In this document: piece by piece, positions 23,007-53,209 of the stretch
Numbering within the stretch: the stretch's first letter is position 1
Layout: every line of letters starts with the position of its first letter
Assembly (NCBI GenBank): GCA_023663725.1
Contig: JAMPGX010000003.1
Location: 178,863-242,862, forward strand
DNA from: a bacterium
Lineage (GTDB): Bacteria; Bacillota; Clostridia; Lachnospirales; Lachnospiraceae
DNA: 64,000 nucleotides
Reading direction: 5' to 3'
Position numbers and translations under genes: made by a program
The notes under the pieces: generated by a model
Seen by the model: only the letters and a program-made list of their open reading frames with translations
Told to the model about the DNA's origin: nothing
Databases searched by the model: none

Positions 23007-23185
23007 ATGGATGGAATGGGAATTTTAAGAACCGCCTTGTATTGTAGGCTGTCAAAAGACGACATGGCGCAGGGGGACAGCGAGAGCATAAAAACACAGA
23101 AAGCAATGCTGGCGCAGTACGCAAGGGAGCATGGATTTTTAGTCGTTGAAACCTATGTGGACGACGGTTGGAGCGGCTTGAATTT
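23007..23185 (+). pseudogene. Large serine recombinase (TnpX-like), 5' part
   Basis: The N-terminal catalytic domain begins [14 protein letters not shown], with the nucleophile serine of the motif YCRLS. It runs to VDDGWSGLNF (residue 60), where the nested element cuts it at TTT 23183-23185. The remaining 498 residues start at 51713. Joined, they give a normal 558-residue recombinase of the Tn4451 TnpX family that would excise and integrate the outer element. As split, the outer element cannot make its own recombinase unless the inner element excises. Confidence 0.88.
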
Positions 23186-23189
23186 TGTT

Positions 23190-23241
23190 GAGGTAAGATA
23201 ACGTAACCTTTTTGGCAGAGGGCGTTATCTTACCTCTTTTT
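23190..23241 (+). terminator. Terminator just inside the left end of the ICE
   Basis: GAGGTAAGATAACG (23190-23203) pairs perfectly over 14 bp with 23223-23236, followed by five T. It would stop transcripts that enter from the split recombinase gene. Confidence 0.85.
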
Positions 23242-23249
23242 GATGTATG

Positions 23250-24926
23250 TTAGATAGCATAACTCTTTACGTCGGCTCCTATCTGTCTGAAATAGGAGAT
23301 ACTTTCGGTAGGCTTGTCGCCTGTATCAACTCTGCCGACAAAGCTATAAAAGATTTCGATTTTGCGGGTGTTCGTTTCCTTATCCAGTTCGTGAATAAGA
23401 ATACGGTCAATAAATTCATGGACGTTTTCGTAGGTCAGTTCGGTAATGGCGGTGTGCTTGCGTACCAGTGCGACAAACCTTTTCACGTCTGCGCTGCGTT
23501 CGGTGGCGGTGTCGATTTCTTGTGACAGTTCCGCAATCCTCCGGGTCAGCGTCTTTTTTTCTTCATCATAGCCGGAAGTCAGAAAAGCAAACTGTTCATC
23601 TGAAAGTTTCCCTAAAGCGTTATCCTCGTAGAGCTTGCGGAATAAGATGTTTAACTCGCTAATCCTGCTCTGTGCCTTGTCAAGTTCTTTCCGCTGCTGT
23701 GTCAGCGTCTTTTGTACTGCCTTTGCGCTGCACTCGTTGGCGGTCTGGATAAATTCCTGTTCATGTGACTTCACATAGGACAGCACCCTTTGTAAATCGG
23801 CAAGGACAAGTTCTTTAAGGACGCTCTTTCGGATATAATGGGTAGTGCAAAGTTCGCCAGTCCTTATCCTGTTTCGGTACTTCCCGCAAGTGTAGGCGTG
23901 TTTGCGTTCCAATGTCCCGGCTCCCTGTTGCAGATACATTTTATAGCCGCAGTCCCCGCAAAAGAGAAGTCCCGAAAAAATGTCGATTTCATCTGATTTC
24001 GCAGGGCGGTGTTTGGTGGCAATCCGTTTCTGTGCAAGTTCAAAGGTTTCTTCATCAATCAAGGGTTCGTGCGTGTTGGGGAAGAAATATTGCTTTTCCT
24101 CCGGGTTCTTCTTTGTCTTTTTCGATTTGTAAGATACCTTGTAGCTCTTGCCTGTAATGGTATGCCCTAAATATTCCTTGCGTCCAAGAATATCATACAG
24201 CGTTTTATCCGGCCAGTTATAAATACAAGTCGGGTGTGGGCGCGGGTGTCGGCAACTGCCGGAACGACGGTAGCGCAGTTCAGAAACAGTAAGTACCTCA
24301 TGTTCCCGTAGCCAGTTCTGGATTTCGCAGATACGGTCGCCGCGCACATACATAGCAAAAATCTGTTTTACAACGTGCGCCGTTTCCGGGTCGGGCAGTA
24401 GGTGGTTCCGGTCGTTCGGGTCTGGTATGTAGCCGTATGGCACTTCGCCGTTGACGCGCTCGCCTTTCTGTGCCTTTGCCTGTTTGACAGCCCGGATTTT
24501 CTTAGAAGTGTCGCGGGCGTAAAACTCGTTGAACCAGTTCCGCAGAGGGGTAAACTCGTTATCTTCCCTTGCTGTGTCTACACCGTCGTTAATGGCAATG
24601 TAACGCACTTCATATTCGGGAAAGACAATCTCTATCAGCTCCCCGGTTTTCAGATAGTTACGCCCCAGACGGGAAAGGTCTTTTGTTATGACGGTCGCCA
24701 CGTTCCCGGCTTCAACTTCGTGTAACATGGCTTGAAGCCCCTCACGCTCAAAACTCACGCCGGAAAATCCGTCGTCAACGAAAAAGCGCGTATTGAAAAA
24801 GTGGTGTTCGTCGGCATACTTTTGTAAAATCAGTTTTTGGTTCTGTATGCTCTCGCTTTCCCCGGCCTGCATATCTTCCTGGCTCAATCTGCAATATAAA
24901 GCGGTAATCTTGTCTGTCTGTAACAT
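23250..24926 (-). CDS. Large serine recombinase (integrase of the ICE)
   Basis: The 558-residue protein has the resolvase catalytic domain ([12 protein letters not shown], Ser about residue 15; KDLSRLGRN), then a recombinase domain and a zinc-ribbon with CGDCGYKMY and a second cysteine cluster. A C-terminal coiled coil completes it. This is the TnpX/TndX type that integrates circular DNA at short cores. ATG 24926 is chosen because GGAGGACAAA precedes it; the frame is open further upstream without a ribosome site. It is read outward toward the left end. Confidence 0.93.
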
Positions 24927-25026
24927 TTTGTCCTCCTTTCCGACGACAGACAAGCATGGTATTTGTACTGTCTTTATTATACCACATACCGCTGCCTGTG
25001 TCATGTATAAAGTGTGAAGAAACGCC

Positions 25027-25197
25027 CTATTTCCGGGCGTTTGCGGGGTTCAGCTCCATGTCTTTCCTTATGAGCTTCTTTATCTTTTTATCCAATGTGT
25101 CCGTCGCGTGTTCACTTGCGGACGAACATACAAGGTAAGTAACTTTTCCGATTTTATGCTCCGTTGTAGTAACGGGCATTGTCTGGTTTTGCGTCAA
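25027..25197 (-). CDS. tnpW: TnpW-family transposon protein
   Basis: The 56-residue protein contains [20 protein letters not shown] followed by a basic helical tail ([11 protein letters not shown]). This is the pattern of TnpW-type proteins next to serine recombinases. The start is TTG 25197 with GGGGGA just upstream; ATG 25179 is an alternative. Function is unknown; an accessory role in excision is possible. It lies upstream of the integrase gene in the same direction. Confidence 0.65.
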
Positions 25198-51409: not shown

Positions 51410-51436
51410 AGTAAATCACTCCTTTTGCTGTGGATT

Positions 51437-51550
51437 TGTTACGCAGTAGAAGCGCGGTTTTGGGGGATAAGGTATAAATCCCTTGCCGCGTCAGAAACGC
51501 GCCCGCAAAGCCGCTTGTAGCAAGGCTTTTTCTGCCCCTACTGCGTAACA
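51437..51550. repeat. 114-bp palindromic element, copy B
   Basis: TGTTACGCAGTAG (51437-51449) and CTACTGCGTAACA (51538-51550) are perfect inverted ends, followed by AGGGG as in copy A. Inner blocks (AAGGTATAAA, GCGCCCG, AAAGCC) are shared with copy A. It lies upstream of the DUF6017 gene, where the promoter of the transfer operon would be expected. Confidence 0.75.
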
Positions 51551-51558
51551 GGGGCATG

Positions 51559-51605
51559 AAAAAAGCGGCGTTCCCGTTCTCCCGTATGGGAGTGAGAAAC
51601 GCCGC
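51559..51605 (-). terminator. Terminator near the right end of the ICE
   Basis: GCGGCGTT (51565-51572) pairs with AACGCCGC (51598-51605), with CTCCC/GGGAG inside the loop. On the minus strand six T follow (51564-51559). It would block leftward transcription entering the ICE. Confidence 0.75.
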
Positions 51606-51708
51606 CTGTGCGTCGTATTCAGTTTTTTAGTACAATACCCGGCTTGTCCGTCGCTCGAAAAACCTTGATTTATCAGTGTTTTCAAAAGTATCGTTATCTA
51701 ACGTCAGC

Positions 51709-53209
51709 TTTCGACAGGCCAGATTTTAACCGTATGCTGGATGACATTGAAGCGGGGAAGATTGATGTGGTAATCACAAAGGACTTGTCACGTCTGGGGC
51801 GCGACCATTTAAAGGTCGGGCATTTCACGGAGATTTATTTCCCGATGAAAAACGTGAGGTACATCGCCGTCAATGACTGCGTGGACACCGCCAACAAAAA
51901 CAACGACATTGCCGCACTGAAGAATGTGATGAATGAATTTTACAGCAGGGACAATTCACGGAAAATCCGTTCTTCCATTCGGGCGAGGGCAAAAGCGGGG
52001 CTTTACCGCTGCTCCTATGCGCCGTTCGGATACCGCAAATCATCTGACAACCATAATAAGCTGGCAGTCGATGGGGAAACGGCATGGATTGTAAAACGGA
52101 TTTTTGAGCTTGCAAATGCGGGCATGGGGGCACATAAGATAGCGAGCGTTTTCCGAGAGGAAAAAGTGCCCTGCCCCTCGTGGTGGCAGCATACCCGTGG
52201 GGAGAAGCATTACCCAGAACGGTTCAAAAACCCCCAGAACCAGTATGAATGGTCGCACACCATCATACGGAACATGATAGGAAACCCCGTGTATCTCGGT
52301 CATTCCGTGATGTGCAAGACGGAAGCCATTTTTAAACTCGGCAAATACAAGAAGCTGCCAGAGGAAGAATGGATACGGACGGACAACACCCACGAGCCGT
52401 TGGTTTCGCAGGAAATCTTTGACGGGGCGAACGCAAAGATTCTGAGCAGGAAGCGTGACACTACAAATAATTTTGTGTCCGTTTTCTCTGGGCTTGTTAA
52501 ATGCGGCGCCTGCGGGAAAGCCCTTGCCCTGCGGTACTGGGGCAGGGACAGGCACCGTATCTATGTCTGCACCACCTACGCCCACAACACAAAAGCCTGC
52601 ACAGACCACCGCATTTACTACGAGGATTTATACAATGCCGTGCTTGCCGACATCCAGTACCATGCCCGCCTTGCCTTTGAAGATAGGGAAAAAGCGGTGG
52701 CTCTGGCGGTGAAGATGAACGCTAGGGCGGACGGAAACAGGGGGAAAAGCAACGAAATGAAACTGAAACAGGCGAGGAAACGCTATGACGAAGTGACGAG
52801 ATTGTTTGACCGTCTGTATGAGGATTCCCTTTCGGGGCGTATCTCCAATGAGAATTTCACAAGGCTGATTGACAAATACCAGACTGAGCAGGAGAAATTA
52901 TTGGAGCAGATGGCGACGCTTGAGGATGCTTTGCAGGAAATTAAGGACAACCGGAGCAATGCCGTACAGTGGGCGGAACTGATGGCGGGGTATGTGGGGA
53001 TAACGGAACTGACCGCCGAGAACCTCAACCTCTTAGTGGAGCGGATTGAGGTGTCTGACCGAACGGAAACAGGGGACGGGATGCAGCAGACCGTCAAAAT
53101 CTGTTACCGCTTCGGCGGTTACATAGGGGAGCAGACTGTCAAGACGAAGATGATTCGCAAGTCCCGCAAAAAGAGGGATTGCCCACGAAAAACAGCAATG
53201 GAAAAATAA
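51709..53209 (+). pseudogene. Large serine recombinase (TnpX-like), 3' part
   Basis: From GAC 51713 the text DRPDFNRMLDDIEAGKIDVV continues the resolvase domain interrupted at 23185. The recombinase domain, a zinc-binding CGACGKALAL region and a coiled-coil end follow. The open frame continues into ICE DNA on the left, but that part is not recombinase. Joined with the 5' part it gives 558 residues. Excision of the inner element at TTT would restore the gene. Confidence 0.88.

Follow-up and report, generated by a model that had tools for sequence, protein, structure and literature searches.

A 64,000-bp stretch of the genome of a Lachnospiraceae bacterium (contig JAMPGX010000003.1, positions 178,863 to 242,862; hereafter the window) contains a gene for a large serine recombinase (LSR) that is divided into two pieces by an inner element carrying an LSR of its own, designated P0003. 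The genome is a draft of 49 contigs and 3.63 Mb, and the window lies within one contig; the coordinates of the features are collected in Table 1. The 5′ piece of the outer gene holds 60 codons, from the initial M to the motif DDGWSGLNF, beyond which foreign sequence and a stop follow. On the other side of the inner element the frame reads F-DRPDFN and continues for 498 residues past the Phe to its stop. The Pfam Resolvase domain is shared out over both pieces, with model positions 2-46 in the former and 48-143 in the latter, and the crossover core consists of the TT of the Phe codon, with one extra T in the lineage of the window.

The closest homologue of the outer recombinase, found in Petralouisia muris (L002), is an unbroken protein of 558 amino acids to which both pieces align head to tail, identity being 100% for the left piece (residues 1-60) and 98% for the right one (residues 60-558). 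An earlier note on the window had read the two pieces as parts of one LSR 28.5 kb apart, which would form an uninterrupted 558-codon frame when joined; the distance proved right, and the frame is that of the homologue. When genome contigs were scanned with the 3′ piece, 37 loci were obtained, three of which were short and were left out of the codon reading. In 29 of the 34 loci read at the equivalent codon, SG[LT]NF runs straight into [DEQ]RP[DS]F, and the continuity of SGLNF with DRPDFN, on which the note had made its reading depend, is found in natural homologues. Two of the remaining five loci (L025 and L037) are broken at the codon equivalent to Phe60 and three (L013, L026 and L032) elsewhere. 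A diverged inner integrase, 81% identical, lies close to the break of L037, while for L025, which is a 4.4-kb contig, no inner integrase was found in its genome at the cut-off applied.

Breaks of other kinds also occur in this recombinase family. A different serine-integrase element, noted at 2594-4105 (minus strand) of L144 and at the L026 junction and about 6.6 kb long in L144, sits in the same family at residue 37 of the 3′ piece (L013/L144 and L026). L032 shows a third kind of break: its match begins at residue 51 of the 3′ piece, and the sequence before that point is unrelated.

Insertion sites of integrases related to P0003

Relatives of P0003 were sought at several taxonomic levels, with 397 genomes from the family, 392 from the order, 391 from the class and 58 from a second family, to which viral contigs and 6 genomes reached by way of loci were added. 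Some genomes are shared between the scans at family, order and class level, the viral collection may include contigs from genomes that were also scanned, and in many genomes scoring was confined to 3 first-look candidates. At an identity of at least 68% over the matched stretch, 33 integrase loci were obtained, the window included. The left junction was readable in 30 of them (the window, as L066, and 29 relatives), L082, L112 and L113 being without a readable attL; an LSR stub lying 922 bp further on in L082 was left uncounted. In 24 of the 30, the junction is formed by an LSR 5′ stub ending at the Phe codon of D-D-G-x-[ST]-G-x-x-F; 23 of these stubs were recognized by a hidden Markov model (HMM) built from the LSRs in hand, and that of L080 by reading the motif. 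At three loci (L098, L104 and L110) the junction codon is TTA with an insert-derived last base, and L110 is off-motif (DYEYSGTN).

Right ends were collected from 32 loci, namely 30 right-end loci of a separate set together with L037 and L025, and 9 lacking the right-end motif (L125-L127, L135 and L139-L143) were excluded, leaving 23, from which the window is absent. In 18 of the 23, the insert of the relative gives way to an LSR at the same codon, corresponding to HMM position 60, and some of the LSR alignments begin a few residues early, within the insert. Where left and right ends could be paired, the window included, the two halves lie head to tail on one same LSR in 16 of 17 pairs, four of the 17 being on separate contigs and the 17th (G073) too short. 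A search for other insertions at this codon had been proposed in the earlier note, and related integrases do recur there, in many LSR genes.

The genes hit in this way are diverse. When the right halves of 16 targets are clustered, 7 clusters result at 50% identity and 14 at 90%; the median pairwise identity is 39%. Furthermore, eight identical integrase proteins, in eight genera, occupy eight different sites, six of which are LSR genes from 5 clusters. Near-identical inner elements are present at several loci, and distinct counts are given where they were used.

This preference belongs to the P0003 group, because the sister, outgroup and L144-relative controls were negative. The control set at 45% comprised 25 sister and outgroup loci, 10 more distant ones (L053 and L057-L065) having been left out, and no LSR was found within 1.5 kb beyond the integrase in any of the 25. 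The sister junctions tested by Pfam had Maff2 as their neighbour in 3 of 3 cases, and by eye some other sister junctions differ. Likewise, none of 24 relatives of L144, an unrelated integrase that is itself inserted in an LSR gene, had an LSR within 1.5 kb, some of the flanks being short; the idea that several integrase families hunt recombinases was dropped as a general rule on account of these relatives. With the LSR target as a label on the integrase tree of the P0003 group, five changes are needed, because non-LSR sites are scattered among near-identical integrases, and these sites look like secondary ones.

A deeper nesting was found in two genomes, G139 and G790 (L184 and L185). There, the broken recombinase shares 95-98% identity with L090, which is an LSR of the sister family, and the 3′ end of the broken gene runs directly into Maff2-like codons (by eye; similar fragments match Pfam Maff2). 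In passages of PMC5357655, maff2 is described as a known part of integrative conjugative elements (ICEs). The stack has three tiers: a P0003-type element is lodged in an LSR gene, and the second element, to which that gene belongs, lies at maff2.

The bases invariant among the distinct LSR half-sites (20 left and 14 right) include GG at -9/-8, TT at the Phe codon, G at +7 and CC at +9/+10. At right ends outside LSR genes, the CC is kept in 4 of 5 cases and the C at +10 in 5 of 5. The matrix used to score the insertion sites was derived from these same sites; the window, which was left out of it, scores 20.3 and 26.8. On this scale, the left half of the corresponding site in the P0003 gene itself reaches 26.9, within the insertion range of 18.4-30.1, and its right half 14.4, under the range of 22.8-33.7 of LSR insertion sites. 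All 29 readable members of the group have Glu, Lys or Asp in place of the motif's Pro in their own integrase gene. The same Pro is present in 58 of 63 other readable LSRs (near-copies included) and in the right half of every LSR target.

The two elements and their surroundings

Table 1. Features of the window, with positions counted from its first letter
Feature	Positions	Strand	Basis
Outer element including insert, approximate extent	19915..58219	.	similarity blocks to relatives end there
Outer LSR, 5′ piece, residues 1-60, last codon the target Phe	23007..23186	+	reading frame, Pfam, homologue alignment
attL core, TT of Phe codon plus T	23184..23186	+	junction sequence
Inner element, putatively integrative and conjugative, ~28.5 kb	23186..51709	.	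both junctions and gene content
Arm GAGGTAAGATAACG at left inner end: first half of the perfect 14-bp inverted repeat next to attL	23190..23203	+	
Second half of perfect 14-bp inverted repeat beside attL	23223..23236	-	
Inner LSR P0003 (Resolvase, Recombinase, Zn ribbon, DUF4368)	23250..25004	-	Pfam
Cargo: choloylglycine-hydrolase-fold (CBAH) protein	26915..28018	-	Pfam
Cargo: TetR regulator	28306-28887	-	Pfam
MobA/VirD2-type relaxase	30010..31359	+	profile searches
Polyvalent protein with ArdA and ArdC-N antirestriction domains	33382..36672	-	profile search
DNA topoisomerase (Topoisom_bac, Toprim)	36932..39028	-	profile search
CD1107-like mobile element protein	39229..39972	-	profile search
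CHAP-domain protein, possibly acting as a cell-wall hydrolase in transfer (putative role)	40235..42418	-	
VirB4-like ATPase (TraG P-loop)	43335..45803	-	profile search
TrbL/VirB6-like protein	46313..47182	-	profile search
VirD4-like coupling protein, CD1115 family	47897..49681	-	585 bits, cut-off 250
DUF6017 protein adjoining the right end	50438..51409	-	profile search
AGATAACG arm at right inner end	51692..51699	-	
attR core, TTT	51709..51711	+	junction sequence
Outer LSR, 3′ piece, Phe60 codon to stop	51710..53209	+	reading frame, Pfam, homologue alignment
TnpV-family gene 3′ of the outer recombinase	53213..53608	+	Pfam TnpV

The inner element encodes its own LSR, in which DUF4368 (PF14287) is matched with 72.9 bits, along with a relaxase, a VirD4 coupling protein, a VirB4-type ATPase and a VirB6-like protein, and a DUF3801 protein is also encoded. 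Of the features of an ICE, an own integrase, a relaxase, a coupling protein and a VirB4-type ATPase are all found in it. Judging from these predicted genes, it can fairly be called conjugative, and a capacity for conjugative transfer would be expected. Among its cargo, the CBAH protein scores under the NCBIfam cut-off for bile-salt hydrolases, to which it is possibly related. AGATAACG recurs in the arms at both ends; over the entire window it is matched 9 times, where 1.46 matches would be expected, and some of these lie away from the ends of the element.

The size of the relatives varies considerably, with spans from the integrase to the right end, on one contig, of about 11 kb (G001), 15 kb (G387) and up to at least 66 kb (G638). 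The full transfer-gene set was checked in the window's element only; among eight open reading frames tested in two short relatives (L145 and L147), no relaxase or transfer protein was found. In L145 (G001), an insert of about 11 kb at the same codon of another LSR carries an ABC-2 permease, a histidine kinase and a phosphoesterase as cargo. The insert in L147 (G1005), of about 13-14 kb and also at the same codon, codes for an RlmA-type and an MT-A70 methyltransferase, a radical-SAM protein and a further LSR.

With the guest subtracted, the outer element would be about 9.8 kb long, and it has genes of the TnpV, MerR, SDR and radical-SAM types. Its left edge near 19915 comes from one relative (G1094), the similarity of the other relatives beginning near 20830-20990, and falls where a shortened ABC-transporter frame (19039-19932) ends; on the right edge near 58219 several relatives agree. 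A radical-SAM cargo protein of the outer element (55753-56586, plus strand) resembles mobile-pair-B proteins, with 302 bits, below the NCBIfam cut-off of 410. Just to the right of the outer element lies a gene for an MmeI-type (type IIG) restriction-methyltransferase (59193-62021, plus strand), and beside it a frame (61976-62677, plus strand) matching the Pfam ADP-ribosyltransferase exoenzyme family.

Interpretation and comparison with known systems

Taken together, the P0003 group is very probably an integrase group whose preferred attB is the sequence encoding the catalytic motif of LSRs, and whose elements would keep the integrase of their carrier locked off while they are inserted. In regard to the mechanism, attB would be the coding sequence of D-D-G-x-[ST]-G-x-x-F-x-R-P, with crossover at the TT of the Phe codon. 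Since the motif is conserved in LSRs, such elements could land in the recombinase genes of many mobile elements unrelated to each other. The insertion splits the Resolvase domain, which would switch off the carrier's integrase and block excision of the carrier by its own enzyme, and precise excision of the guest would restore the carrier's recombinase gene. Because the nucleophilic Ser of LSRs is found close to the N-terminus of their catalytic domain, neither piece is expected to be active; as the whole catalytic domain is present in neither of them, the outer recombinase has presumably lost its activity. Of the two-element hierarchy proposed in the earlier note, the nesting itself and the disruption of the LSR are supported by the intact homologues and both junctions, while the disabled mobility of the outer element, which the note had also claimed, is what the divided domain would lead one to expect.

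Several observations weigh against a strict form of this reading. Six of the 30 left junctions (L067, L070, L073, L076, L106 and L111) and five of the 23 right ends (L114, L117, L119, L131 and L138) lie outside LSR genes, and the preference is therefore not absolute. In the tree, the P0003 rows are grouped with L100-L102 under a starred branch, without being set apart as a clade of their own. The bases that the enzyme reads are also inseparable from those that an LSR protein must conserve. Finally, the invariant or near-invariant core motif has 12 matches in the window's genome, against 5 for the reversed control, and only 2 of the 12 fall within LSR genes; the core by itself is thus insufficient to account for the preference, although the full site score clearly separates these two from the other ten. 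Non-LSR sites in use score low throughout, which means that poor sites are tolerated by the enzyme.

It could also be imagined that such elements are recombinase hunters, sparing their own gene through the missing Pro, jamming rivals in several bacterial families and being released from stacks from the inside outward. We regard this wider scenario as tentative and rather doubtful. The missing Pro codon might spare the integrase's own gene, but the evidence is mixed: the five right ends used outside LSR genes score from -24.5 to -1.4, below the 14.4 of the own site, and sites poorer than the one supposedly protected were therefore used. In addition, the outgroups L100-L102 also lack the Pro and have no LSR at their junctions, so that its loss may predate the target preference.

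Alternatively, the nesting could be incidental, a promiscuous DUF4368 integrase with a loose TT site having landed once in a recombinase gene by chance. DUF4368 integrases are indeed common in the multi-targeting clade described in excerpts of PMC10083194, where a TT core is given for one example, and six of the left junctions are in other genes. However, a chance landing is very improbable in view of 24 junctions at one codon of one superfamily, with 20 distinct half-sites, and of their absence from all 25 sister and outgroup loci. Even less credit can be given to a misjoining of contigs from different elements, which a draft genome in 49 contigs might suggest: both halves belong to one gene, and both junctions recur with related inner ends, including in single-contig genomes (among G329, G197, G423, G790 and G638), which makes the probability of such an artefact practically negligible. 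A regulatory role of the right end could also be considered, in which 35 codons of the inner element are fused to the C-terminal part of the target, and the fusion protein, without the N-terminal part of the catalytic domain, blocks related recombinases in a dominant-negative manner. In the window, an open frame starting from a GTG at 51608 reads through the junction, and open frames of at least 36 codons are present at 20 of 23 right ends, mostly in near-identical copies. Yet only 8-14 codons are open at the other three (L128, L137 and L138), and a conserved start or ribosome site lacks support, so a switch of this kind appears highly unlikely.

A different weight has to be given to the possibility that the same site preference was selected because the cell can do without its LSR genes, which are also plentiful and conserved, the immobility of the carrier being a side effect. 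Elements with serine integrases are thought to pick targets of low cost to the host, according to passages of PMC4701971 and PMC5357655, and insertions were found in many genera. On the other hand, the data would look alike if the disruption brought an active advantage, and disruption also removes the carrier as a means of transport for its passenger. We consider the chances of this explanation to be evenly balanced, and it is compatible with the favoured reading of a group that prefers the LSR catalytic-motif sequence and locks off its carrier's integrase.

Such a preference matters in several respects. When the usual target is a protein-coding motif of the integrase's own superfamily, one enzyme looks multi-targeting and yet is specific. 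The control of mobility of one element by another becomes testable with a defined site, and the natural series of attB variants, together with the self-site, can serve the study of how serine integrases read DNA. Furthermore, nested elements in genomes may leave a recombinase gene in two pieces that is easily dismissed as a pseudogene.

In its gene content, the inner element shares genes for a CD1115-family VirD4, a CD1107-like protein, TrbL_2, DUF3801, DUF6017 and a topoisomerase with the clostridial conjugative transposons of the Tn1549/CTn type, to which it may be linked, while the integration module and the target differ. The closest solved structure to P0003 by sequence is that of TnpX from Tn4451 (2mhc, E 1.5e-36, residues 29-144), for the catalytic domain only. 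The skin element and the comK prophage are excisable elements that interrupt genes in a regulated manner. As in those cases, a coding gene is split by an element whose precise excision would restore it, with the difference that the split gene here is that of another mobile element; the interruption of comK is mentioned in a passage of PMC4701971.

Related to the question of specificity, Durrant et al. 2022 distinguished a clade of multi-targeting LSRs that is rich in DUF4368 and includes one example with a TT core, and the available portions of that paper state that the clade was omitted from the enrichment of target-gene Pfam domains (PMC10083194). P0003 resembles the clade as portrayed there in its DUF4368 domain, its TT core and the several target clusters at 50% identity, a likeness of features drawn without placement in a tree. 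It differs in that the target clusters of the P0003 group belong mostly to one superfamily and are hit at one codon. If multi-targeting is taken to mean targets spread over unrelated genes, which is our own reading and no criterion of that paper, the group departs from it, 24 of the 30 left junctions being in one superfamily.

The nearest precedents are ICEs and integrative mobilizable elements (IMEs) with serine integrases that are inserted in the traG, maff2 or snf2 genes of ICEs, such as Tn6104 and streptococcal IMEs, as outlined in parts of PMC5357655, PMC5704250 and PMC3158075. In both cases, going by these parts, a serine-integrase element lies inside a conserved gene of another mobile element, here the outer LSR with its neighbouring TnpV gene; the gene is disrupted, and the direct repeat is very short. 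In contrast, the IMEs break a coupling protein, a membrane protein or a helicase, whereas the P0003 element is found in none of traG, maff2 and snf2 but breaks an integrase gene, at a codon of its catalytic motif, and the insertions of its group do so in widely differing families of recombinases. In the open-licence literature, among the matches listed, no ICE or IME targeting a motif of recombinase genes was found. The nesting of serine-integrase elements in genes of mobile elements is thus known, and what appears to be new is a recombinase-gene motif as the target.

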